In this document: positions 5,062 to 27,192 of the stretch, piece after piece
Position numbering within the stretch: the first letter of the stretch is position 1
Layout of the letters: each line of letters opens with the position of its first letter
IMG/VR virus record: IMGVR_UViG_3300046011_010856
Coordinates: 1 to 28,066 of that record
DNA: 28,066 bases
DNA from: a virus
Reading direction: 5' to 3' (one strand)
Notes under the pieces: generated by a model
Told to the model about the DNA's origin: nothing
The model's database searches: none
What the model saw: only the letters and a program-made list of their open reading frames with translations
Translations under genes and position numbers: made by a program

Positions 5062-5742
5062 TTAAATGTATATTATGTGATAATAAAAATCTGTATCAGG
5101 AACTGTTGATTCAAAAGTTAATGAAGTACCTACTAAACTATTAACTACCATATTGTTTGAAGCACCATTGCTTCCAGAAGGAGTAGCTGTTACAAAACAA
5201 TTCTGTCCTAATGTTTTTCCTGAAATTTCACTTATATTAATTATAACGGTATTAGTGGCTGTTTTACTAGCCCCTGCTATAAATTTTAAAGAGGCACTCG
5301 GTTGTGAAGCTGATCCACTTGGATAATAAGTATTTTGAACTGAAGTTGCTGGTCCAGTTGATGAAGCATATGAAGCTGTTCCAAACAAACTACCTGTTAT
5401 GGTAGTTACAGTCAATGTGTTTGTAGATGGATTATATTTTAAACTATCATCATCAAATCTTAAAGCTGAATTGTTTGATTGGGTTGTATTAAATAAAGCT
5501 ACAGCTAAAAATTCTGGAGAAACAGATGAAGTTATTGTTGATGTATCTGCTTGTGAAGCCACACCCAATAAACTTCCAGTATAACCATTCAAAGACATTA
5601 CTGAACCAGTAAATGTTGTTGAACCAGATATTTTTATATCATAGGCTACAGTACCTGTTAAAGCATCAATACTTTGAGATACATCAGATGCCTGTATAGT
5701 ATTTCCTGTTAGGATATTACTTTTTGAGAGAACTAAAGCCAT
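5062..5742 (-). CDS. fibre-like structural protein
   Basis: A 226-residue Ser/Thr/Gly-rich protein. It starts MALVLSKSNILTGNTIQASD, a fibre-like N terminus, and carries phage-fibre repeat motifs GYTGSLLGVASQA (about residue 53) and TGSLFGTASYASS (about residue 116). The last about 80 residues (SASLKFIAGASKTATNTVII onward) look like a beta-rich tip domain. It is smaller than the other fibres in this block, so a short fibre or an adaptor for a larger fibre is likely. It is the last adhesin gene before the tail sheath module. Confidence 0.75.
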   Translation of the reverse strand: MALVLSKSNILTGNTIQASDVSQSIDALTGTVAYDIKISGSTTFTGSVMSLNGYTGSLLGVASQADTSTITSSVSPEFLAVALFNTTQSNNSALRFDDDSLKYNPSTNTLTVTTITGSLFGTASYASSTGPATSVQNTYYPSGSASQPSASLKFIAGASKTATNTVIINISEISGKTLGQNCFVTATPSGSNGASNNMVVNSLVGTSLTFESTVPDTDFYYHIIYI

Positions 5743-6157: not shown

Positions 6158-9064
6158 TTAAGCTATTTCATAAGAACCGTTCCAAGATATTTCATCTAAG
6201 TTTCCCCAAGTAAAAGGAACTGTTGATTCTAATCCAACAGCTACTGAGCTTGTGTTTTGCCATTGTATTTCTGATCTTGTAGAACTTCCAAGCCTTCCTC
6301 CATTCATTAATCCTGAATACCAGTTAATACCATTATCTAAGAATGAAGATGGTATTTGGATTCCGTAAGCAGAAGATGCTGTAAATGGTAATTGGAAATA
6401 CCAAGCACCTGTTCCATAAGTAGTTGTAGTTCCCATTACTAATCTTCCTCTTACAAAGCATGTTTTACCAATTACTTTATATTGACCTGTTATTGTTCCA
6501 TCTCCAATTACAGGATCTGATGATGCAGCTGTCCAAACAGGAGTATACGAAGTCCAAGCTGTTGATAATTCTGAACCGTTAAAGTTAAGAGAACCAGTGG
6601 CTTGTATTGAACCAGTAAACGAAGGAGCATTTACAGAACCAAAGAAATCTACTCTTTTGGTTGAAAAACTTCCTGTTATTAACAGGTTTGTAGAAGAGTT
6701 AGCTAGTATGAAAGTATTAGAAGCAGCTGTTATTGTTGATCCTGCTGCATAACCTATGAATACATTATAATTTCCTAAAGTTAATCTACCAGCTGTATAT
6801 CCTAGATAAACTGAACCGTCATTAGATCCTGTTCCAGTAGCTGTAGCATTTTGATAACCTGCTTCATAACCTACTGCTACCATGTAACGAGAAGAAGATG
6901 CTAATTGCATAGCTCCATGTCCAACAGCTACGTTTGAAGTAGTTGATCCTAAACTGTTAAACCATCCCATGGCTGCAGATCCTATGATTGTATCACTAAT
7001 TGAAGTTCTTAATCCATATCCTGCTGAAGGTCCTATAGCTACAGTAAAATCAGAACCAGCACCTGACATATCTCTACCAGCTAAATAACCTATTAAAACA
7101 TGTCTTCCATTTGATACGTTTCTTCCAGCAGTATAGCCAATAGCTATACCATCATTACCTACAAAGTTATTTCCAAATGCATCAAAACCAATAGCTATAG
7201 CACCAAATCTTGTATAATTTAATAGTGAGTTATATCCGATAGCTACGTTATTAGACCCACTTTGATTGGCGTTTAAACTAAATACACCTATTCCAATATT
7301 AGCTTCTCCTACTGAATTATTTTTCAGAGAAGCTCTTCCTAAAGCTATGTTGTTAAATCCTGTTGTTAAATTTCGTAAAGGTTCACTATTACTATTATCA
7401 AAACCAATAGCTATATTATTATTTCCAGATGTTAATCCTAAAGCTATAGCATCATTTCCTGCAAAGAAATTATTAAATCCTGTTGTTATTGAAGGGTAAG
7501 TAGTAAGCCTACTCCCAAACATAAAGTTGTTTCTACTAGTGTCATATCTTACTACCCAGTTTGAACCTATCTTATAACCCATTGTAGAACCGGTTAAAGG
7601 AGTTACATCAATAAATGAAGAAGCAGATGTTAAACTCATGTTTCCAAAGAAACCTGATGAGCCTGTTACAATTAGGCTTCCAGTAATAGCTGCTGAACCT
7701 GTAAATGGGAAAACAGCAGCGTATGAAGCAGTAGTTGCAAATGAAGCACTTAATGCTTGTGAAGCATATGAAGCTGTTCCTAATAATGAACCTGTGAATG
7801 AGGGAGCATTAACTGAACCAAAGAAATCTACTCTCTTGGTTGTAAAGCTTCCTGTAATTAAGAAATCTGTTGATGAGTTAGCTAGTATAAAAGTGTTTGA
7901 GGCTGCTGTAATAGTTGCACCAGCATCATAACCTAAAAATACATTATAATTTCCTAATGTCAATCTACCAGCTCTGTAACCAACATAAACTGAACCATCG
8001 TTAGATCCTAACCCAGTTGCTGTTCTATTTTGATAGCCGGCTTCATAACCTATAGCTACCATGTAACGAGAAGAAGAAGCATATTCCATAGCTCCATAAC
8101 CTATAGCTACGTTATCTCTTGTTGTTCCTAAACCATTAAAATCCCACATAGCTAAGGCACCAACAACAGTATCATTATTTGAAGTTCTTAAACCGTAACC
8201 AGCTGAAGGCCCTATAGCAGTTGCATTATTAGAAGTAGTTGCTGTCATATCTGCAGCAGTAAATGCTCCTATTAAAACATGACTTCCAGTTACTACGTTA
8301 ATACCAGCATTATATCCAATAGCTACATTATAGTCATCTGAGGCTGCATTTCCGGCATGTCTGTTTAAAGCTGCATGTCCTATAGCTATTGAACCTACTC
8401 TTGTATAAACATTTAGAGCTGTATATCCCATAGCTATATTGTGAGAACTACTTTGATTAGTATATAAAGCAAGTTCTCCTATACTTATATTGTGGTTTCC
8501 TACAGAAAGACTTCTTAAACCTCCCCTTCCTAAAGCTATATTGGATTGACCAGTTGTTAAACTTCGTAAAGGTTCATTATTAGTAGTATCAGAACCAATA
8601 GCTATATTATTAAACCCTGTTGTTAAACCGTTTGCTATAGAAGGACCACCTGCGAAGAAATTATTACCGCCTGAACCTGTTACAGAAGCATATGTAGCTG
8701 TACTACTTCCTATAATTAAGTTATTTCTACTAGAGTCATATCTTGTAACCCAGTTTGAACCTATTTTGTATCCAAAATTTGAACCAGTTAAAGGAGTTAT
8801 GTCTATGAAAGATGAGCCAGATGTTAGACTCATGTTTCCGAAAAGTCCTGATGAACCTGTTACAAATAAACTCCCAGTAATATCTGCTGAACCTGTGTAA
8901 GGGAATGCATTACCACTACCTCCTGCATTTAAAGCAAAAGATGCAGTTGTGGCAAAAGATGAACTAGTTGCAAATGAAGCTGTTCCTATAACCGTTCCAC
9001 CAGTTACTGTTAAGCTTCCTGATAGGGATGAATCTCCTAATATTTGAGCGTTATCTATTCTCAT
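6158..9064 (-). CDS. large tail fibre with duplicated YadA-head-like repeat modules
   Basis: A 968-residue protein with fibre architecture. Residues 1-53 form an N-terminal region with TASFA-type repeats. Residues 54-451 and about 452-845 are two copies of one module, each starting F-P-[YF]-T-G-S-A-x-I-T-G-S and filled with N-x-x-I-A-[IL]-G repeats (for example NNIAIGFDN, NNVAIGYNSL), the signature of the left-handed beta-roll of YadA/Hep_Hag trimeric adhesins. The C-terminal about 130 residues begin TAWTSYTPVWTAASSDPVIG, a tip-domain type shared by many phage fibres. A trimer is likely by analogy. The start at 9064 is supported by a late-type motif exactly four bases upstream. It probably contacts the host surface. 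Confidence 0.9.
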   Translation of the reverse strand: MRIDNAQILGDSSLSGSLTVTGGTVIGTASFATSSSFATTASFALNAGGSGNAFPYTGSADITGSLFVTGSSGLFGNMSLTSGSSFIDITPLTGSNFGYKIGSNWVTRYDSSRNNLIIGSSTATYASVTGSGGNNFFAGGPSIANGLTTGFNNIAIGSDTTNNEPLRSLTTGQSNIALGRGGLRSLSVGNHNISIGELALYTNQSSSHNIAMGYTALNVYTRVGSIAIGHAALNRHAGNAASDDYNVAIGYNAGINVVTGSHVLIGAFTAADMTATTSNNATAIGPSAGYGLRTSNNDTVVGALAMWDFNGLGTTRDNVAIGYGAMEYASSSRYMVAIGYEAGYQNRTATGLGSNDGSVYVGYRAGRLTLGNYNVFLGYDAGATITAASNTFILANSSTDFLITGSFTTKRVDFFGSVNAPSFTGSLLGTASYASQALSASFATTASYAAVFPFTGSAAITGSLIVTGSSGFFGNMSLTSASSFIDVTPLTGSTMGYKIGSNWVVRYDTSRNNFMFGSRLTTYPSITTGFNNFFAGNDAIALGLTSGNNNIAIGFDNSNSEPLRNLTTGFNNIALGRASLKNNSVGEANIGIGVFSLNANQSGSNNVAIGYNSLLNYTRFGAIAIGFDAFGNNFVGNDGIAIGYTAGRNVSNGRHVLIGYLAGRDMSGAGSDFTVAIGPSAGYGLRTSISDTIIGSAAMGWFNSLGSTTSNVAVGHGAMQLASSSRYMVAVGYEAGYQNATATGTGSNDGSVYLGYTAGRLTLGNYNVFIGYAAGSTITAASNTFILANSSTNLLITGSFSTKRVDFFGSVNAPSFTGSIQATGSLNFNGSELSTAWTSYTPVWTAASSDPVIGDGTITGQYKVIGKTCFVRGRLVMGTTTTYGTGAWYFQLPFTASSAYGIQIPSSFLDNGINWYSGLMNGGRLGSSTRSEIQWQNTSSVAVGLESTVPFTWGNLDEISWNGSYEIA
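6600..8905 (-). repeat. duplicated module of about 1.19 kb within the fibre gene
   Basis: The segment coding residues 54-451 (8905-7712) is followed by a second copy starting at 7711, offset 398 residues. The copies stay aligned without large gaps over most of their length: both have the SSGxFGNMSLTS, TPLTGS, GYKIGSNWV, AIGPSAGYGLRTS and VDFFGSVNAPSFTGS landmarks in the same order. Divergence is moderate, so the duplication is not recent. Confidence 0.85.
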
Positions 9065-11146: not shown

Positions 11147-12400
11147 TTATGTATATTGTAAATAAATATCTCCATCAGAACCGCCTGAAGGTGCTGCTGT
11201 TCCTGATGTTATAACCTTATTAGCACCAAGTGTATTATATGATATTGTCCTTGATGTTGAACCGTTAAAAGAAGTTCCTGGAGCGTCACCACTTCCTGAG
11301 TCATTAAATGTAATAGGATTTGTAGTTACACCACCATTTAAAGCAAATGAAGCTGTTAATGAGTAAGAAGAACTTAAGGCATAAGATGCACTTACTACAC
11401 TTCCTAATAATAATGATGCTGTCGCCGCATATGAAGAGCTTGTTGCGATAGAAGCAGTAGCAGCATATGAAGCACTTACTACACTTCCTAATAATACAGA
11501 GGCTGTAGCAGCGTATGAAGAACTTAGGGCTTGATTAGTGTAACTTGATGTTCCTAAAACACTACCAGTAAATGATCCTGTAAACGAACCTGTTCTAAAT
11601 GATCCAGTGAAACTATTAAACGCTGTTAAAGTTGTATAAGCAGGAGCAAATGATGCTGTAGCGGCAAATGAAGAACTTAAAGCATTATTAGCATAAGATG
11701 CTGTTCCTAATAATGATCCTGTAAAACTTCCTGTAAATGATCCTGTAGTGTATGAACTTGTGAAAGTATTAAAACTTGAAGTTGTTACAAATGAGCCTGT
11801 GTTTATATTTCCTCCTCCACCATTAAGAGCGAATGAGGCTGTTAAGGCAAAAGACGAACTTAAGGCATAAGATGCACTTACTACACTTCCTAATAATACA
11901 GAGGCTGTAGCAGCGTATGAAGAACTTAAAGCATTTGTAGCATAAGAAGCTGTACCTAATAAACTACCTGTAAATGAACCTGTGAATGAACCACTTCTAT
12001 AAGAACTAGTAAAACTATTAAAGCTTGTAAGAGTAGTATAATTAGGAGCTAATGATGCTGTTGAGGCAAATGATGAACTTAAAGCATTTGTAGCATAACT
12101 TGCTGTTCCTAAAAATGAACCAGTAAAACTACCTGTGAATGAACCTGTAGTGTTTGTTGGAGCAAATGATGCACTTAAAGTATAAGAAGCACTTGTTGCA
12201 ATAGAAGCAGTTGCAGCATAACTTGAACTAACTACACTTCCTAATAATAAAGAAGCTGTAGCAGCGTATGATGAGCTTAAAGCATTTGTAGCATAAGATG
12301 CTGTACCTGTTAGATTTCCCATAATAGAACCGGAAATTCTTAAACTCCCTGTTATACTTAAATCATCTATACTCGCTGAGTCTGTGAAAAATATTGCCAT
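11147..12400 (-). CDS. repetitive tail fibre protein
   Basis: A 417-residue fibre. Most of it is built from alternating blocks: T-G-S-F-T-G-S-F-T-G-S-[LFV]-L-G-T-[AS]-S-Y, then hexapeptide-like runs (SSSYAATAS, SASYALSSSF), then LLLGSVVSASYA. Residues about 355-417 form a different C-terminal domain that starts TTNPITFNDSGSGDAPGTSF and ends SGGSDGDIYLQYT, a type seen at the ends of other phage fibres and collar proteins. DNA blocks are shared almost unchanged with the larger fibre gene just upstream. A late-type motif lies four bases before the ATG. Likely a trimeric, rod-like adhesin part. Confidence 0.88.
   Translation of the reverse strand: MAIFFTDSASIDDLSITGSLRISGSIMGNLTGTASYATNALSSSYAATASLLLGSVVSSSYAATASIATSASYTLSASFAPTNTTGSFTGSFTGSFLGTASYATNALSSSFASTASLAPNYTTLTSFNSFTSSYRSGSFTGSFTGSLLGTASYATNALSSSYAATASVLLGSVVSASYALSSSFALTASFALNGGGGNINTGSFVTTSSFNTFTSSYTTGSFTGSFTGSLLGTASYANNALSSSFAATASFAPAYTTLTAFNSFTGSFRTGSFTGSFTGSVLGTSSYTNQALSSSYAATASVLLGSVVSASYAATASIATSSSYAATASLLLGSVVSASYALSSSYSLTASFALNGGVTTNPITFNDSGSGDAPGTSFNGSTSRTISYNTLGANKVITSGTAAPSGGSDGDIYLQYT
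12228..12298 (-). repeat. 71-base direct repeat shared with the larger fibre gene
   Basis: This segment is identical over 71 bases to 14015-14085 in the neighbouring fibre gene (both begin ctaactacacttcctaataa on the plus strand). The flanks differ. Confidence 0.85.
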
Positions 12401-12420: not shown

Positions 12421-15400
12421 TTAACTTTCCCCATAAGCTGTTGCTATCCAATATGTAGTTCCTGCTAGAGCTGTATTACTGTTAGCGCTAACTATAAAAC
12501 TTCCAGACACTTTACTTTCTATTGTCCATGTTCTAGCATCTTCTCCTGTAACAACTACTGAATAATTAGCATCAACAAATGCTGTTGAAAAAGTAACTGT
12601 TGCTGTTTTTGGATTTCCTGTAAAAGAACTATTAAGAATTCTTCCAGATTTAGTTGTTAAAACATTTGAAGCATATGAGGCAGTTAAGGCTTGTGTAGCA
12701 TAAGATGCTGTACCAAATAAACTACCTGTTAATGAACCTGATGCTCTTAGAGCTAGTGAAGCTGTTGAAGCAAATGAAGCACTTATAGCATTTAAAACAT
12801 ATGAAGCAGTTGTAGCAAAAGAAGCAGTAGTTGCAAATGAGGAACTTACAGCATTTAAAACGTAAGAAGCAGTTGTGGCAAAAGATGCACTTAAAGCTTG
12901 TGAAGCATAAGATGCTGTTGTTGCAAAAGATGATGATGTTGCAAAAGAAGAGCTAACAGCGTTTAAAACGTATGAAGCAGTTGTAGCAAAAGATGCACTT
13001 ACAGCATTTAAAACATAAGATGCTGTTGTAGCAAAAGATGCTGTATTAACAAGCAATGATGCTGTAGGTATTATAGTTGGTATACTATTACTATCACCTA
13101 CCCATACAGAACCTGATGTTATATTTGGTAAATTTGCTGGACCTGGGTTAAGTACTACTCCTTGGCCTCCTGAGCCTTCTTTGGTTACTACTCCTAGAAC
13201 TTGTATGATTGCAGAACCTGATGGTCTTGATGGTGTCCATCCTCCACCAACTGCTGTATATATTTCTGTACCTCCTGGGTATCCTGTGGTGTCTACTCCT
13301 GTAATTAAACCTAATGCTATACCTCTTCCTATATCTCCAGGATCAATATTATCAGCTGTTATATAGATTACAGGCATTCTTGCTGGGTCTCCAGCATCAG
13401 CTGCGTAAACTATAGAATTAGCACCTACAGAACCAGATACAAAAACAGGAGTTCCTTTTTGTAAAGTAAAAGATTCTCCATTGTAAATATTTTCATATAA
13501 TGTGTTTACATATTGTAAACTTAAATTACCATTTCCATCTGTTTGTATAAAAGAAAATTCACCATTGTCAGCTGAAGGATAATTTAATCCGCTTGCTGTT
13601 AAAGAATTTCTTACTATAAAAGTATCAGCTGAGGAAGCAGTTGCTGCATAAGAGGCACTTGTTACAAATCCTTCTAAGTAAGAAGCCGTAGCTGCATAAC
13701 TAGCACTTGTTACTGTACCTTCTATGAATACTGCTTGTCCTAAAATAGTTGCATATCCAGAAGATGAAACTGCAAAGTAAATTTCTATACTATTAGCATC
13801 TATAGATCTTATTTGTGAAGGTATAAGAGCATAACTACTTGAATATACATTTACTAATGGATATGTTTCATTTAAGTTATGAGTTATACTCCAAGTTGTT
13901 GCCGCTACTGATTGAGTAAATACAAATAATGAAGCTGATACAGCTGTTGATGCACCTGCATTTAAAGCATAAGAAGCTGTTAAGGCAAATGATGAACTTA
14001 AAGCATAAGATGCACTAACTACACTTCCTAATAATAAAGAAGCTGTAGCAGCGTATGATGAGCTTAAAGCATTTGTAGCATAAGAGGCTGTACCTAAAAC
14101 TGAGCCTGTAAAACTTCCAGTAAATGAACCAGTAGTATTTGTAGGGGCAAATGACGCACTTAATGCATATGAACTACTTAAGGCATATGATGAACTAGTT
14201 GATATTGAAGCAGTTGATGCAAATGATGAACTAATTGCTTGTAAAGCGTTTGATGCCCAACTTGAAGTACCTAATAATGAACCAGTAAAACTACCAGTAA
14301 AAGATCCTGTTGTGTTTGTTGGAGCAAATGAAGCAGATATTGCAAATGAAGAATTTATACTAAAAGATGAGGTGGTTGCAAATGATGAACTTAAAGTATT
14401 TGTAGCATAAGAAGCAGTACCTAATAAACTACCAGTAAATCCTTGGGTTGAAATTATTGAACCAGTTACAGTGAGAGAGCCTGTTATTACCGCGCTACCA
14501 GTGTATGGAAATGAGGAAGCATTAGCAACATATGAGGCTGTTAAGGCATAAGAAGCACTTGTAGAAGCCGAAGCATATGATGAACTTGTTGAGATTGATG
14601 ATGTAGAAGAAAATGAAGCACTTACTGCTTGTAATACGTAAGAAGCTGTTTGAGCATTAGATGCACTTGTTGAACTTAAAGCATATGAAGAGGAAGTTGC
14701 TATAGATGATGTGGCAGCATATGATGAACTTATTACGTTATTAGCCCATGATGCTGTTCCTAATAAACTGCCTGTAAATGATCCTGTATAAGATCCAGTT
14801 CTAAAAGAACTAGTAAAATTGTTAAATGTTGTTATTAAAGTATAACTTGGAGCAAATGAAGCAGTTGAAGCAAATGAAGAACTTAAAGCGTTTGTAGCAA
14901 AAGATGAAGTTCCTAAAATACTACCTGTAAATGAACCTGTGAATGAACCGGTGTTATAAGAGCTTGTAAAAGCATTAAAACTAGAAGTTGTTACAAATGA
15001 GCTAGTATTTATAGTTGTTCCTGCATTAAGAGCAAAAGATGCAGTTAAAGCATATGATGAACTTAAAGCATTATTAGCATAAGATGCTGTTCCTAATAAA
15101 CTGCCTGTAAATGAACCTGTGAATGAACCTGTTCTATTTGTAGGAGCAAATGAAGCACTAAGAGCATATGAACTACTTAAGGCAAATGATGAACTTAAAG
15201 CATAAGATGAACTTACTACTGTTCCTATAAAATAAGAAGCGGTTGCAGAATATGAAGATGATCTTGCCTGTTCAGCAAACAAAGCGTAAGAAGCGGTTGC
15301 TATTGAACCTGATTGGGATACAGTTACATCAAATGTTGTTCCATTACCTTTTGTAAAAGTAATTGTTGTATTTACAGCTGAAGCTGTTATTATACCTAAT

Positions 15401-15591
15401 AAAGGTAATGATGATGTTGATGCGTATGATGCAGATAATGTTGGTGTAGTAAATTCTTTAACCTCATTCCCTGAACCACTTCCATAAAATAATCTACCAT
15501 TGGTAACATTGATAGCCATTTCCCCTTGTATAAGGGTTGAAGGAACGCTTCCGGATGTGGCGCTATTTTTTATTATGATGGTACTACTCAT
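12421..15591 (-). CDS. long repetitive tail fibre protein with several tip-type domains
   Basis: A 1056-residue fibre. It starts MSSTIIIKNSATSGSVPSTL, followed by Q-G-E-M-A-I-N-V-T-N-G-R-L-F-Y-G, an attachment-end motif common to phage fibres. Residues about 50-580 are GSFTGSFTGSLLGTASYA blocks and SYALSS/SFALTA hexads. About 585-645 is a HNLNETYPLVNVYSSSYALI domain; about 700-860 is a globular domain with LQKGTPVFVSGSVGANSIVY and YAADAGDPARMPVI; about 870-980 is again hexad repeat. The last about 70 residues (KSGRILNSSFTGNPKTATVT onward, ending ATAYGES) look like a compact beta tip. It probably binds the host surface. A late-type motif lies four bases before the start. Confidence 0.9.
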   Translation of the reverse strand: MSSTIIIKNSATSGSVPSTLIQGEMAINVTNGRLFYGSGSGNEVKEFTTPTLSASYASTSSLPLLGIITASAVNTTITFTKGNGTTFDVTVSQSGSIATASYALFAEQARSSSYSATASYFIGTVVSSSYALSSSFALSSSYALSASFAPTNRTGSFTGSFTGSLLGTASYANNALSSSYALTASFALNAGTTINTSSFVTTSSFNAFTSSYNTGSFTGSFTGSILGTSSFATNALSSSFASTASFAPSYTLITTFNNFTSSFRTGSYTGSFTGSLLGTASWANNVISSSYAATSSIATSSSYALSSTSASNAQTASYVLQAVSASFSSTSSISTSSSYASASTSASYALTASYVANASSFPYTGSAVITGSLTVTGSIISTQGFTGSLLGTASYATNTLSSSFATTSSFSINSSFAISASFAPTNTTGSFTGSFTGSLLGTSSWASNALQAISSSFASTASISTSSSYALSSSYALSASFAPTNTTGSFTGSFTGSVLGTASYATNALSSSYAATASLLLGSVVSASYALSSSFALTASYALNAGASTAVSASLFVFTQSVAATTWSITHNLNETYPLVNVYSSSYALIPSQIRSIDANSIEIYFAVSSSGYATILGQAVFIEGTVTSASYAATASYLEGFVTSASYAATASSADTFIVRNSLTASGLNYPSADNGEFSFIQTDGNGNLSLQYVNTLYENIYNGESFTLQKGTPVFVSGSVGANSIVYAADAGDPARMPVIYITADNIDPGDIGRGIALGLITGVDTTGYPGGTEIYTAVGGGWTPSRPSGSAIIQVLGVVTKEGSGGQGVVLNPGPANLPNITSGSVWVGDSNSIPTIIPTASLLVNTASFATTASYVLNAVSASFATTASYVLNAVSSSFATSSSFATTASYASQALSASFATTASYVLNAVSSSFATTASFATTASYVLNAISASFASTASLALRASGSLTGSLFGTASYATQALTASYASNVLTTKSGRILNSSFTGNPKTATVTFSTAFVDANYSVVVTGEDARTWTIESKVSGSFIVSANSNTALAGTTYWIATAYGES
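14015..14085 (-). repeat. 71-base direct repeat shared with the smaller fibre gene
   Basis: Identical to 12228-12298. It is the partner copy, allowing recombination between the two fibre genes with loss or swap of the 1.8 kb between them. Confidence 0.85.
15092..15129 (-). repeat. 38-base direct repeat (copy 1)
   Basis: Identical over 38 bases to 15683-15720 in the small fibre-like gene upstream. It codes the TGSFTGSLLG block. Confidence 0.8.
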
Positions 15592-15594
15592 TTA

Positions 15595-15604
15595 TTATAA
15601 ATAT
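15595..15604 (-). promoter_or_regulatory. late-type promoter motif for the long fibre gene
   Basis: The coding strand reads TAATATTTATAATAAATG: the stop codon of the gene before, the core, then the ATG at 15591 four bases after the core. ATTTAT-A-ATAAAT is a perfect inverted repeat here. Confidence 0.65.
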
Positions 15605-15852
15605 TAAAAAGTTCCTCCATCTATTATTGGAACATAAGATGCTGTTAAAGCATAAGATGCACTTAACGCATAAGAGGCAGTCCCTAATAAACTGCCTGTA
15701 AATGAACCTGTGAATGAACCAGTTGTTGTTGATGATGAACCTGAAAAGTTAAAAAGAGAACCAGTCCCATCGTATACGTTAACTCCATCTGTTTGAAGGA
15801 GTCTTTGGTAGGTGTTGCTTATTGCTGACCCTGATAAGTTATAAGATGACAT
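15604..15852 (-). CDS. mini fibre protein ending in DGGTF
   Basis: An 82-residue protein: N-terminal MSSYNLSGSAISNTYQRLLQ with a TDGVNVYDGTGSLFNFSG segment, then one GSFTGSFTGSLLGTASYA block, one hexad run (LSASYALTASY), and a short tail IIDGGTF. It looks like one N-terminal module and one shaft repeat of the big fibres, without a tip. The same C-terminal signature (SYxDGGSF) occurs in the gene at 16883-17221. It may be a short fibre or a connector onto which the next fibre assembles. The repeat DNA is shared with the long fibre gene (38 identical bases). Confidence 0.78.
   Translation of the reverse strand: MSSYNLSGSAISNTYQRLLQTDGVNVYDGTGSLFNFSGSSSTTTGSFTGSFTGSLLGTASYALSASYALTASYVPIIDGGTF
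15683..15720 (-). repeat. 38-base direct repeat (copy 2)
   Basis: Identical to 15092-15129 in the adjacent long fibre gene. Confidence 0.8.
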
Positions 15853-19934: not shown

Positions 19935-20357
19935 TTAATTTGTTACAATGTAATACTCTATACTAGCAGAACTTCCTGATGGTTCAACTTTAACTGATTT
20001 GATGTTATCAAAAGATAAACCACTTACACTTCCAGTCATTTTGGTTGATGATATCATATATGAACTTCCACCAGAAATTAAATAACTCATAGCCTCAGTT
20101 GAAGAGGAAACTATCAATTTAACAGGTACAGTAGAAGAATTATTTGTGACTCTAACATATTGTACACTGCTTGTTACAAATGTTCCTGCACCTGGTAATC
20201 CATCAAATGAAAATAATGTAGTTACTGCATTCGCAGGTACATTTAATATTCTGTTGTCTACATAATTAACATTGTTAATAGTGTTTACAACTGAAGATCC
20301 TACATCGTCTCCATTTAGATTTAAAATTTCATATATTTGAGAAGTAAATGTTGCCAT
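19935..20357 (-). CDS. small beta-rich virion protein, unknown function
   Basis: A 140-residue Ser/Val/Asn-rich protein: MATFTSQIYEILNLNGDDVG, then alternating beta-type strands (YVRVTNNSSTVPVKLIVSSS) to the C terminus (ASIEYYIVTN). No signal peptide, no Cys. The composition fits a small jelly-roll or Ig-like decoration or head-completion protein. It is the first gene of the neck group and has its own late-type motif nine bases before the ATG. Confidence 0.7.
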   Translation of the reverse strand: MATFTSQIYEILNLNGDDVGSSVVNTINNVNYVDNRILNVPANAVTTLFSFDGLPGAGTFVTSSVQYVRVTNNSSTVPVKLIVSSSTEAMSYLISGGSSYMISSTKMTGSVSGLSFDNIKSVKVEPSGSSASIEYYIVTN

Positions 20358-20359
20358 GC

Positions 20360-20384
20360 TTTTTCATATAAATATTGAAAAGCT
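20360..20384 (-). promoter_or_regulatory. late-type promoter motif within an imperfect inverted repeat
   Basis: The core TATTTATA (20367-20374) is nine bases before the ATG at 20357. It lies between near-complementary arms: coding-strand AGCTTTTCA on one side and TGAAAAAGC on the other (one-base bulge). No other copy of the motif has such arms. It may be a weak terminator for the PhoH gene overlapped with the promoter. Confidence 0.5.
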
Positions 20385-20395
20385 ATGGTTTCGTT

Positions 20396-21133
20396 CTATT
20401 TTTTAGAATTTCCGTTTGTATTAGAACTACCTAAACTAAATCCTTGTTCATAAGCATCATTGTACAGATTAATTAAATCTTCTACAATAGGATCTCTATG
20501 GTTTTGTTTTAAAGAAATAGCACATAGGTTTTTTATTTTTTTAGCTGCAGCATATAAAAATTTAAATCCAGAATCTCGTTTTTGTTTTAAATCTACTTGA
20601 GCATCATCTCCGCAAATAATCATTTTAGATCCTTTACCAATACGAGTAACAATCATTTCCATTTGTTCATGTGTTACATTTTGGGCTTCATCTACAATTA
20701 CTACAGAATTTACAAATGTTCTACCTCTCATAAATGATACAGGAACAATCTCTATTTGACCATCATTTATACATTTTTCTACTTTTTCTTTATCATAAAG
20801 TAAATACATGTTTTGATAAATAGGTTGAACCCAAGGATCCATTTTTTCCCTTAAATCACCTGGTAGAAATCCAATTTCCTCTTTTGATACAGTTGGGCGA
20901 GTAATGATTACTTTTTCAACCTCTCTCATAAACAAACGTTCTAAACCAATTTGACAAGCCAATAATGTTTTACCAGAACCTGCCGCACCTGATAATAATG
21001 TAATTGTATTATCTAGTATTTTTGATTTAGCCTCTTTTTGTTCCTCATTTAATTGGATTTTAAATTTAATAGGATTTTTTGGCTTACGCTTTTCTTTGAA
21101 GACTTCGTCTTCATGATTTAGTTGAATATTCAT
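20396..21133 (-). CDS. phoH: PhoH-like ATPase
   Basis: A 245-residue P-loop protein of the PhoH family. Walker A is GAAGSGKT (49-56), followed by the PhoH hallmark T-R-P-x-V (78-82) and G-F-L-P-G-D-L-x-E-K (88-97); Walker B is VVIVDEAQN (144-152); further family features are M-I-I-C-G-D-D-A-Q-V-D and the Q-N-H-R-D (sensor-like) near 215-219. It lacks extra nuclease (PIN) or RNA-binding domains, like most phage copies. PhoH proteins are common in marine phages; the role in infection is unclear (RNA metabolism or phosphate stress have been proposed). It overlaps the preceding gene by 23 bases, so the two are probably coupled. The start at 21133 needs this overlap. Confidence 0.95.
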   Translation of the reverse strand: MNIQLNHEDEVFKEKRKPKNPIKFKIQLNEEQKEAKSKILDNTITLLSGAAGSGKTLLACQIGLERLFMREVEKVIITRPTVSKEEIGFLPGDLREKMDPWVQPIYQNMYLLYDKEKVEKCINDGQIEIVPVSFMRGRTFVNSVVIVDEAQNVTHEQMEMIVTRIGKGSKMIICGDDAQVDLKQKRDSGFKFLYAAAKKIKNLCAISLKQNHRDPIVEDLINLYNDAYEQGFSLGSSNTNGNSKK

Positions 21134-21848
21134 TAAAATTAATTTTTACTAACGCATCAATACCAGCATTTACATGCATGGCATCTTCTAAACATAACTC
21201 GAAATCATATCTATTATCTAATGGTAACACTAAATCTACTTGTGAACCCCATCTAATTAAAGAAAATCTTTCATTTTGAGCAAAAATATCGTTTTGGTCC
21301 ATAGTAAATGGAGCAATTACATTTACATCTTCATCTGCAATTTGGATTAAATAATAAGTATAATCTAAAGATGGTGAATAAATTTTATTCCACATACGTT
21401 CATTATACTTTAAATATTCCATATTTGCAGGATTAATTTTTTTATTTAAAATATCTTTTTCAACCGCCAACATGGGTTTATTTGTCGATTGAATCGCGTC
21501 TAACGGTTTATATGATAACATACCTCCATAGGGTATGCGATTGATGTGAACATCATAAAATGACATAAATATACCAATAACTAACGATGGTTTATTATAG
21601 TCCTCATCACCCATAACATCCTGGAGAGTGTAATTTATACCTTTAATTTCAACTACTGGTTCAGTAGGATCTTTAATAAATTTTTGGTATAAAATAGTTC
21701 CATCAGCTGGTGAATAAAAATGTTCATGATCAATATAATTTGGACGAATTGGATCTCTAAAGAAAAATACATTAGATAATTCGCCTACAGGCATTTTCTG
21801 AAGTTGTTTTACTTCAGTTCCTAACCATTCTTGTAATGTTTGTGCCAT
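21111..21848 (-). CDS. phosphatidylserine decarboxylase-like pyruvoyl enzyme
   Basis: A 245-residue protein with the phosphatidylserine decarboxylase (PSD) signatures in order: S-P-A-D-G (46-50), M-S-F-Y-D-V-H-I-N-R-I-P (95-106), a central beta region and W-G-S-Q-V-D-L-V-L-P (200-209). In E. coli PSD the triad is Asp, His and the Ser of LGST, where self-cleavage makes the pyruvoyl group; D49, H101 and S202 (Gly201-Ser202) fit those places. PSD turns phosphatidylserine into phosphatidylethanolamine. The usual T after GS is Q here. It is shorter than E. coli PSD (322), with no membrane-binding N-terminal helix evident. Its ATG shares one base with the previous stop (TAATG). A related decarboxylase with another substrate is possible. 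Confidence 0.85.
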   Translation of the reverse strand: MAQTLQEWLGTEVKQLQKMPVGELSNVFFFRDPIRPNYIDHEHFYSPADGTILYQKFIKDPTEPVVEIKGINYTLQDVMGDEDYNKPSLVIGIFMSFYDVHINRIPYGGMLSYKPLDAIQSTNKPMLAVEKDILNKKINPANMEYLKYNERMWNKIYSPSLDYTYYLIQIADEDVNVIAPFTMDQNDIFAQNERFSLIRWGSQVDLVLPLDNRYDFELCLEDAMHVNAGIDALVKINFNEYSTKS

Positions 21849-22762
21849 TATAGTAATGTTTTATTATGATCAACTCTGTTCAAATGCATCATCATACAAG
21901 ACAGCATAGCACCTGATTTCATATACTCAGATAAATTAAATATAACCGGTTCCATACCTGCATCGCCACAAATTTTTTCTAGTGTTTTAAGTTTGTTTAC
22001 TTCACCTTCATAGTATTCATGACTTTTCTTTAATTCAGAAATGTTAGAGGCACATAAAACCATGTTACCCATTCTTACAGAATTGGTTAATCCACATAAA
22101 GCATTTTCAACATCAATATCAATGATTTCTGTTTCTTTTTCAATCATTTGTAATTCTTCTTCATCAAATAATTCAGTACAAATTAATGTTTGTTCTGTAT
22201 TTAAAGCAAATATTGAACAATCTAAATGGTAAAGATATTCATCAACCATAGCTACTTTAATAATATCCATGTTGTATTGTTCTTCCATCCATTCATAAGC
22301 TTTGATGTTTGAACGAATACCATAACCACCAATGTATTTGTTACCGTAAAGATATTTCAAATCAGCCTCACCTTCCCATTTATATGGAGAAATAGCTGTT
22401 TTATAACCCATTTGATTAAAATATTTTTCACCAACCAATTCTTCACCTTTACGAGGATCAGAAGTAAAATTAGATAAAATAATGTGATTTTCGTTTTTGA
22501 TATGAGGTAAATAAATACCTAAATTAGCCACATAAACCTGATCTTGAAAATTACCTTCAGAAGGTAATAGATTAACTAAAGCACCTCCAGCAACAAAATT
22601 ATACAAATCCATAAATTGTTTGTATGCTTTGGGTTTATTAATTGATAATTCTTCATCGGTTAATTCTTGCATCCAAATATTATTTGGATCTTCTGTAGAT
22701 AAAGTAAATGGGAAATTCATTACATAACTTTGAACAGGCAACTGACTTGGTGTTTGTTTCAT
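21848..22762 (-). CDS. guanidine-modifying enzyme, DDAH / arginine deiminase-like
   Basis: A 304-residue protein with the layout of the dimethylargininase/amidinotransferase fold. Visible motifs: F-Q-D-Q-V-Y-V-A-N-L-G (72-82; family form xxDxVFxANxG), W-E-G-E-A-D (129-134; family FEGxGD), Y-H-L-D (178-181) and S-G-A-M-L-S-C (283-289). In the superfamily an acidic residue binds the guanidine group, His activates, and the near-terminal Cys forms the covalent intermediate; D134, H179/D181 and C289 fit. Known members hydrolyse methylarginines, arginine or agmatine, or transfer amidino groups; which applies here cannot be read from the sequence. It is first of three overlapping genes after the capsid terminator. 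A sigma-70-like candidate promoter is upstream, unlike the late motif of neighbours. Confidence 0.85.
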   Translation of the reverse strand: MKQTPSQLPVQSYVMNFPFTLSTEDPNNIWMQELTDEELSINKPKAYKQFMDLYNFVAGGALVNLLPSEGNFQDQVYVANLGIYLPHIKNENHIILSNFTSDPRKGEELVGEKYFNQMGYKTAISPYKWEGEADLKYLYGNKYIGGYGIRSNIKAYEWMEEQYNMDIIKVAMVDEYLYHLDCSIFALNTEQTLICTELFDEEELQMIEKETEIIDIDVENALCGLTNSVRMGNMVLCASNISELKKSHEYYEGEVNKLKTLEKICGDAGMEPVIFNLSEYMKSGAMLSCMMMHLNRVDHNKTLL

Positions 22763-22786: not shown

Positions 22787-22824
22787 TGTATACATATTAT
22801 ATAGGTCTATACTAGTAACAAAAA
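22787..22824 (-). promoter_or_regulatory. candidate promoter for the enzyme operon, with TGTATACA palindrome
   Basis: The coding strand has TATAAT (22801-22796) and, 17 bases upstream, TTTTTG (22824-22819), a weak -35 inside the capsid terminator's T tract. Just downstream is ATATGTATACA (22797-22787), which also occurs before the scaffold gene. The late-type core is not present here, so this unit may follow a different time course. Confidence 0.45.
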
Positions 22825-22843
22825 GCCCCGATTTCTCGGGGCT
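22820..22843 (-). terminator. strong rho-independent terminator after major capsid gene
   Basis: An 8-bp stem, AGCCCCGA (22824-22831) with TCGGGGCT (22836-22843), closes a loop reading GAAA on the coding strand, followed by TTTTTG. It is 26 bases after the capsid stop codon. Confidence 0.92.
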
Positions 22844-22868: not shown

Positions 22869-24629
22869 TTAGATAGTATTTAAACCACTTACATAAATTT
22901 TTCCATAAAACTCTGGACGCAACATCTTCTTAGCGTAACGAGTCAACAGACCTTTTCTTGGAGTAAAGGTTTCAGGATCGTACACTAGAGGAGTCATAAT
23001 CAATGGAATGTATGGAGAGAATACAGCACCTGTTTCCAAGAACTGAGAACCTCTGTAACCCATTAAGATTAAGTTTTCGGTCATGTATGGATTTTTGTAA
23101 ACTTTGTAACGACCGTTTACTGAACCAATTTTCTGTACACCGAAAGCGTATTCCATTTGATCAGCTTCGCCATTGCTAGTAGAAGCAAATCCTGGGATTG
23201 ATTCTAAGATAGTAGCGATTGTTGGAGAAGTTACTAAGAAGTTAGCACCACCTCTTAAAGTCAACTGATGGATCTTGTTAGATACTTTTTGGATTTTAGT
23301 ACCTAAGGTTTGGAACCATTGACCTTGAGTGTTGTAGAAAGCTGAAGAGTTAGTAACTAAAGTAGATCCGTTATAAACTTGGTTGTTAATAGCTGACCAA
23401 TATTCAGTAGCTGCAGCAGCATCTTCAATCAACATATCCAAGATTTCCAAATCAATTTCCATTGAAATGTACTCACTCATGATGTTAGTCAATTCAGCTT
23501 CAGCATCAATGTTTTGGTAAGCAGCTAAGTCTTGAGCAAATTCAGGAGTCCATACTGCTTTCAATTTCTTGGTTTTAGCAGTGATAGGTTGTGATTGCAT
23601 TCTAACGTTGATCTCAGGGATAACGATTTGAGTAGAACTCGCAGCGTTAGGTACTGAGAACGCACCATCAGCTTCAAAATCACCACGACCTGATTGGTTA
23701 CCACCTATAGCAGAAGCTTGGTTGTTACCTGAAGTTACGTTGATACCATCTTGAGAAGTTGATTTTTGGTAGAATACAGTAACGTTAGCTGCTGGAGCAC
23801 CTGAGAATGCTGTAGTTGAACCTGTATAGAAGAAAGCAATAGTACCTGCTGTGTAGTTGTAAGTAGTAAATTGTGATAATAAGTTAGCAGGAGCAAATCC
23901 ACTACCACTCAATACAAATCCACGAACTGCATCTTGATCAAATGAAGGTAAGAATGAAGCAGTAGCAACTGTTACTTTGTAAATACCATTAGCTAATACA
24001 GAAGCAGAATAATCAGAATCAAAATCTAATTCAGCCCAAGAAGCTGTAACTACTGAACCTGTACCTGCTGCTAGTACTGGAGTAGTTCCACCAGCACTTG
24101 AACCTGATACCCAAACAGAAGCTGAGAATTGGTTAGTAGCGTAAGTGAAACGACCTGAAGGACCACCATATAAACCACCTTCAGCAGCTGGAGTAGAGAA
24201 TGGGAACTGAGAAGCAGTGTTTCTGTTACCATATAAAGATGAACCATCCCTGAAAGGGGTCTTAGAGTTACCATATTGGAAATCCAAGAAGAACACTAGA
24301 CCTGAAGGCATGTTCATTGGTTGAACTGAAACGAATTCTTTAGCTACGATAGTTCCGAATACTTTACGAACTAAAGGCAAAGCAATACCAGCCCAGTTTT
24401 CACCTTGACCGCCTGATGTGAAAGAAGAGTTAGAGGCAATAGTATTAGTTTCAGTTACCAACTGTTTAGCTTGGTTTTCTAATAAGATAGACATGTTGTT
24501 TTTGTCAACTTCTACTAATCCTTCTAACAATCCTGTTTTTGTCCATTTACTGGACAATTTAGCAGCATCGCTCTGAAGTGACTTCCAAGAGCCAGCTGCG
24601 CTTTCTAATAATTGTTGTACGTGTGACAT
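22869..24629 (-). CDS. 23: major capsid protein (T4 gp23-like)
   Basis: A 586-residue protein (T4 gp23 precursor 521). The start MSHVQQLLESAAGSWKSLQS and the block P-L-V-R-K-V-F-G (85-92), Q-P-M-N-M-P-S-G (103-110), L-V-F-F-L-D-F (111-117) are diagnostic of gp23-type HK97-fold capsid proteins. The C-terminal half keeps the family's order (W-T-P-E-F-A-Q-D-L-A-A-Y, L-E-I-L-D-M-L, G-A-N-F-L-V-T-S-P, near-terminal P-R-K-G-L-L-T-R-Y-A-K-K). An insertion of Gly/Ser/Ala/Thr-rich sequence at about 125-330 makes it longer than T4. The prohead protease cleaves after (I/L)-x-E; candidate sites end at E36, E40 and E51. It is preceded by its scaffold and followed by a strong terminator. Confidence 0.97.
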   Translation of the reverse strand: MSHVQQLLESAAGSWKSLQSDAAKLSSKWTKTGLLEGLVEVDKNNMSILLENQAKQLVTETNTIASNSSFTSGGQGENWAGIALPLVRKVFGTIVAKEFVSVQPMNMPSGLVFFLDFQYGNSKTPFRDGSSLYGNRNTASQFPFSTPAAEGGLYGGPSGRFTYATNQFSASVWVSGSSAGGTTPVLAAGTGSVVTASWAELDFDSDYSASVLANGIYKVTVATASFLPSFDQDAVRGFVLSGSGFAPANLLSQFTTYNYTAGTIAFFYTGSTTAFSGAPAANVTVFYQKSTSQDGINVTSGNNQASAIGGNQSGRGDFEADGAFSVPNAASSTQIVIPEINVRMQSQPITAKTKKLKAVWTPEFAQDLAAYQNIDAEAELTNIMSEYISMEIDLEILDMLIEDAAAATEYWSAINNQVYNGSTLVTNSSAFYNTQGQWFQTLGTKIQKVSNKIHQLTLRGGANFLVTSPTIATILESIPGFASTSNGEADQMEYAFGVQKIGSVNGRYKVYKNPYMTENLILMGYRGSQFLETGAVFSPYIPLIMTPLVYDPETFTPRKGLLTRYAKKMLRPEFYGKIYVSGLNTI

Positions 24630-27182: not shown

Positions 27183-27192
27183 TTATAAATAT
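27183..27192 (-). promoter_or_regulatory. late-type promoter motif
   Basis: The coding strand reads TAATATTTATAACAAATG: the stop codon of the gene before, the core, and ATG at 27179 four bases later. The arrangement is the same as at 15595-15604. Confidence 0.65.

Follow-up and report, generated by a model that had tools for sequence, protein, structure and literature searches.

The window, that is the whole 28,066-nucleotide stretch of DNA analysed here (IMG/VR record IMGVR_UViG_3300046011_010856, positions 1 to 28,066), carries two overlapping genes for a guanidino-modifying enzyme (GME) and a pyruvoyl decarboxylase of the PSD family, and this pair is cargo in a T4-like phage, lodged after the capsid terminator and ahead of the resident phoH gene (Table 1). 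The best overall explanation, which we hold with slightly better than even confidence, is a two-gene cassette that is transcribed late and whose products would convert arginine to putrescine. As judged from sequence comparison, the GME and PSD-like genes make up a conserved set of metabolic genes within the head-tail cluster and are under purifying selection, with dN/dS of ~0.04-0.19 against relatives and invariant catalytic residues. To this extent an earlier sequence-only reading, which had proposed an auxiliary metabolic set, is borne out; its extension of the set to phoH, as a trio acting as a unit, is not.

Table 1. Features of the cargo slot and its surroundings (positions are those of the window)
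Feature	Position	Strand	Remarks
GME, guanidino-modifying enzyme, arginine-dihydrolase-like	21848..22762	-	304 aa; PF19420, phrog_12759
PSD-family pyruvoyl decarboxylase, distinct GME-linked subfamily	21111..21848	-	245 aa; GSQ cleavage motif; PF02666, phrog_12670
PhoH-like ATPase	20396..21133	-	245 aa; PF02562; resident of capsid-PhoH-neck order
Late-like promoter motif variant ATATGTATA	22789..22797	-	upstream of GME gene
Terminator-like GC hairpin and T run	22820..22842	-	capsid gene end; left edge of cargo slot
Major capsid gene	22869-24629		upstream of the three genes; phrog_138, E 1e-69
Gene with late-like motif ATATTTATA upstream	19935-20357		downstream of the three genes, followed by head-tail adaptor
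Late-like motif ATATTTATA, examples	20367-20375, 27184-27192	-	2 of 10 sites; sites mostly just 5' of structural genes

The three open reading frames, their families and their overlaps were confirmed as originally described, the GME and PSD genes sharing 1 base (TAATG) and the PSD and PhoH genes 23 bases. All three proteins score above their Pfam cut-offs: GME in PF19420 DDAH_eukar (31.9 bits against a cut-off of 23, E 1e-7), the PSD-like protein in PF02666 PS_Dcarbxylase (85.1 bits against 22, E 6.5e-24) and PhoH in PF02562 PhoH (218 bits against 27, E 1e-64). GME also matches phrog_12759 (E 3e-63) and the PSD-like protein phrog_12670, both of which are PHROG families of unknown function. The flanks too are as claimed, with the hairpin at the end of the capsid gene on one side, read directly in the sequence, and the late-motif gene on the other.

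A gene-neighbourhood search showed that the trio recurs in relatives, the order major capsid protein (MCP)-GME-PSD-PhoH being found in 116 of the 131 IMG/VR loci that were fetched with the GME or the PSD protein. It is this recurrent order that would favor a single functional unit of three genes, in which PhoH contributes an ATPase or remodels RNA for the pathway. However, when relatives were fetched instead with the capsid or the PhoH protein, 96 loci proved to have PhoH at the same place after MCP and no pair, and in 78 of these the two genes are separated by fewer than 300 bases (the slot locus counts are best matches of larger sets, with several loci from one contig, and are illustrative rather than frequencies). 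Some of these pair-less relatives have a PhoH 88% identical to that of the window, and in three (L312-L314), whose capsid and PhoH proteins are 84-88% identical to those of the window, the slot is empty, ~100 bases long, and retains equivalents of the hairpin. In other relatives the slot is occupied by fibre-like genes or by genes that appear by eye to be GIY-YIG- or HNH-like (L258, L282, L214, L234). Moreover, PhoH is absent from two phages that carry the pair, Bacteroides phage DAC16 and Campylobacter phage NCTC12673, and was not seen beside the pairs in cells, among the 33 GME loci of the genome search described below. The pair-less MCP-PhoH relatives and the PhoH-less pair carriers together largely rule out the trio as a unit, and with it the three-gene co-expressed unit of the sequence-only reading; a contribution of PhoH to the pathway is extremely improbable. 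PhoH is a neighbour only and not part of the enzyme pair, and the MCP-GME-PSD-PhoH order arises because the pair is inserted at the capsid-PhoH site.

In nearly all of the 131 IMG/VR loci the GME and PSD genes themselves are adjacent, and in 113 loci their spacing is fixed. In the tree of each protein, the phage copies of the window type group together as one clade. Among annotated phages, homologues of both are found in Campylobacter Fletchervirus and in six Bacteroides phages, and GME alone also matches one Xanthomonas phage. The two genes are adjacent in DAC16. The NCTC12673 proteins gp044, annotated 'amidinotransferase', and gp085, annotated 'phosphatidylserine decarboxylase', are homologues of the window proteins with 40% and 38% identity, but unlike the genes in the window theirs lie 43 kb apart, with no PhoH. 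Apart from the pair, all that NCTC12673 and DAC16 have in common at E 1e-8 is homing endonucleases, a dUTPase and a GTP-binding protein. No paper that treats the GME and PSD genes as a pair, the NCTC12673 copies included, was found in the open-licence literature. DAC16 also encodes a Cpn60 chaperonin, to which the phage-encoded Cpn60 of another locus (L143:5230-6834) is 49% identical.

The pair is not confined to phages. When genomes were scanned with an alignment of GME, 33 GME loci came up in scattered bacteria. They are 31-53% identical except for one (L152, 74% identical), whose contig is probably of phage origin and was binned into a Flavobacteriales MAG, and a PSD-like gene adjoins GME in 20 of the 33, L152 included. 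The gene order is PSD-GME in cells as against GME-PSD in phages, and the linkage therefore survives rearrangement. To avoid ascertainment by GME, the PSD subfamily alone was used to search 1,391 genomes in five groups, and a GME gene was adjacent in all 12 of the loci found, some of these being in genomes that had served as search centres and several being new (G129, G258, G745, G775). In four cyanobacteria a PLP-dependent decarboxylase of the Orn/Arg type adjoins GME in place of the PSD-like gene, and some GME genes, in alphaproteobacteria and Myxococcales, have no decarboxylase partner nearby. GME and the PSD-like protein are very probably an obligate functional pair.

Several peculiarities of the cell loci may be recorded here. 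In three alphaproteobacterial loci (L173, L174, L176) the partnerless GME precedes an unknown gene ~110-124 aa in length. In Photorhabdus tasmaniensis (L167:610-2435) the PSD-like gene is split by a transposase-like insertion and GME is intact. Two PSD-GME copies are present in each of two bacteria, one MAG (L160 and L175) and Streptoalloteichus hindustanus (L183 and L207); a natural-product cluster was sought by eye among the neighbours of the second S. hindustanus copy, and none of these was informative.

GME is related to arginine dihydrolase and probably acts in the same way. Its structure model, of moderate quality (pLDDT 67), agrees with the alpha/beta-propeller fold of guanidino-modifying enzymes and has as its best solved fold match the cyanobacterial enzyme ArgZ (6juy, Foldseek E 1.2e-12), and ArgZ/AgrE, of the cyanobacterial ornithine-ammonia cycle (PDB 6juy, 6lrf), is also its best profile match (hmmsearch E 7e-23). 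Residues D74, N80, R104, E130, R150, H179, D181 and C289 of GME are conserved across phages, the catalytic C289, H179 and E130 together with N80 being invariant. All of the mapped catalytic and substrate residues of AgrE (N22, D65, N71, R90, E118, R139, H168, D170 and C264) are matched in GME, the correspondence of C289 to C264 being read from a conserved C-terminal motif. Among those kept, and equivalent to N80, is N71, which on the strength of PDB titles we take to be the dihydrolase residue of AgrE. GME differs from ArgZ/AgrE in being only ~22% identical, in having no ornithine cyclodeaminase domain and in being partnered with a decarboxylase; it scores 79.9 against the NCBIfam arginine dihydrolase equivalog, below the cut-off of 450, and is also below the NCBIfam cut-off for dimethylargininase.

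The PSD-like protein belongs to a distinct subfamily. As in the PF02666 pyruvoyl enzymes, the site of G-S self-cleavage (G201-S202) and the catalytic D49 and H101 are kept, and these are invariant; the residues E130, D172, N103 and Q203 are those of the subfamily. All 25 paired members examined have a GSQ motif, versus LGST or FGSR in canonical PSDs; E130 lies in an insert (NxPML..E) that canonical PSDs are missing, and D172 is invariant where canonical enzymes carry A or G. The structure model (pLDDT 59) is too poor for a fold search. Phage copies have no hydrophobic stretch before the core, a feature on which some canonical PSDs score only a little higher.

The sequence-only reading had included membrane lipid head groups in the proposed chemistry of the unit, and membership in PF02666 with a preserved self-cleavage motif is indeed what would be expected of a protein that, during infection, makes phosphatidylethanolamine from phosphatidylserine; one survey of auxiliary metabolic genes (AMGs) in the ocean likewise interprets phage psd as a gene of lipid metabolism (PMC11360552). 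However, the protein falls far under all of the NCBIfam PSD equivalog cut-offs (72.6 bits, as against 183 for the best). Furthermore, 10 of the 11 GME-bearing cell genomes that have PF02666 genes contain a second, non-paired PSD copy, to which the GME-linked gene is thus additional, and a lipid role offers no reason why the gene should always be linked to one for an arginine-type enzyme. A distinct PSD subfamily tied to such an enzyme, with canonical PSD elsewhere in the genomes, argues against the membrane role as the likeliest one, and we regard that role as very unlikely.

A basic amino acid is favored over a phospholipid as substrate of the PSD-like protein because of the partner swap in cyanobacteria and the fixed acidic residues of the subfamily. 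In the proposed route GME would hydrolyse L-arginine to L-ornithine, CO2 and ammonia, as does ArgZ/AgrE; the PSD-like protein would cleave itself between G201 and S202, forming its pyruvoyl cofactor, and would then decarboxylate ornithine to putrescine. For this specific sequence of arginine, ornithine and putrescine the chances appear evenly balanced. That arginine is turned into putrescine by two enzymes in a route so far unrecognised, common to several phage lineages and scattered bacteria, with a PSD-family enzyme turned pyruvoyl-dependent ornithine (or arginine) decarboxylase, is a tentative proposal to which we give a little less than an even chance.

The net reaction would be identical if the steps were reversed, the PSD-like protein making agmatine from arginine and GME hydrolysing agmatine to putrescine, and phage pyruvoyl arginine decarboxylases do exist (PMC9992855). 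A PAD_porph gene, of a family that includes agmatine deiminase, is also present in three of the four cyanobacterial clusters of the ODC type. However, GME keeps both of the arginines that align with R90 and R139 of AgrE, and in DDAH and ArgZ structures these arginines bind the substrate carboxylate, which agmatine does not have. The reverse order appears quite unlikely on this account.

A second alternative is that the pair makes some other amine or guanidino product that is used by the phage, such as a small metabolite for export, a product of amidino transfer or a nucleotide that is hypermodified. Genes for MATE or ABC exporters are frequent neighbours of the pairs in cells, and a product that is exported and is not putrescine could account for this; the Campylobacter phage copies have been annotated as amidinotransferases. 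A FAD/NAD oxidoreductase (phrog_12409) that is common to one relative of the window (L148:15071-16420) and to NCTC12673 (gp008) is a possible further pathway gene. Nevertheless, the match of GME to arginine dihydrolase is clearly better than that to amidinotransferase, and Pfam scans of the genes flanking the pair in DAC16 gave no hint of DNA hypermodification. In a search for a third pathway gene common to all pair-carrying phages, the FAD oxidoreductase was not detected in DAC16 at E 1e-5. A product of this other kind seems unlikely, and conversion of arginine to putrescine is the reading retained here.

With respect to timing, the GME and PSD-like cassette would be transcribed from a late-type promoter along with the structural genes. 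The window has 10 copies of the late-like motif ATATTTATA versus 1.75 expected, all of them on the coding strand and most of them immediately 5' of structural genes. The element upstream of the GME gene, ATATGTATA, had been taken for a different promoter type, but it differs from ATATTTATA by one base. The combined motif ATAT[T/G]TATA occurs 12 times in the window versus 2.7 expected. Of 68 distinct relatives, 60 have it upstream of the GME gene, mostly 31-38 bases ahead of the start. Since the T form is found in 27 of these relatives and the G form in 33, a late promoter type in common with the structural genes is most likely for the pair. In 21 of the 68 distinct relatives a near-palindromic TAGGCCTA-type element (~22797-22815 in the window) overlaps this promoter region upstream of the GME gene and is a possible operator. 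The transcriptome paper on NCTC12673 (PMC6024767), consulted for expression timing, names neither the GME nor the PSD gene in its main text.

Phage polyamine genes as such are already known, and it is apparently the combination of a GME and a PSD-family enzyme that is undescribed. Phages encode pyruvoyl ornithine and arginine decarboxylases (ODCs and ADCs) that evolved from S-adenosylmethionine decarboxylase (AdoMetDC, SpeD) (PMC9992855), and such AdoMetDC-derived enzymes are widely spread in bacteria (PMC10407285). The predicted role of the PSD-like protein is the same as that of these phage enzymes, a pyruvoyl decarboxylase feeding putrescine, but it is of the PSD rather than the SpeD family and comes with its own enzyme for converting arginine to ornithine. 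Phage JG004 depends on host speD, which has been explained by DNA charge balance (PMC3120641), and in Bacteroides thetaiotaomicron spermidine is the sole polyamine, made through agmatine and a carboxyspermidine route (PMC10135574). Putrescine produced late in infection might help to neutralise DNA for packaging or feed spermidine synthesis by the host. AdoMetDC, spermidine synthase (SpeE) and PLP-dependent ODC were not found in the eight phage records searched, and therefore either the host would use the putrescine or putrescine would act as such.

If the proposed route is correct, phages of several lineages (those of Campylobacter and of Bacteroides, and uncultured T4-like ones) have an arginine-to-putrescine pathway of their own under late control, which bypasses the longer arginine-agmatine-carbamoylputrescine route of the host. 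B. thetaiotaomicron uses the latter route (PMC10135574), and there a direct source of putrescine would save three host steps. It would also correct phage and ocean AMG annotations of these proteins as membrane-lipid enzymes and amidinotransferases, and would make the PSD family a further fold among those known for ornithine and arginine decarboxylases. With two genes one could then test directly whether a phage provides counter-ions for its own DNA, which is an old question.

Elsewhere in the window, several fibre-like proteins (5062-5742, 6158-9064, 11147-12400, 12421-15591 and 15604-15852) have repeats in common, such as SFTGSFTGSLLGTASYA...SSSYAATAS.
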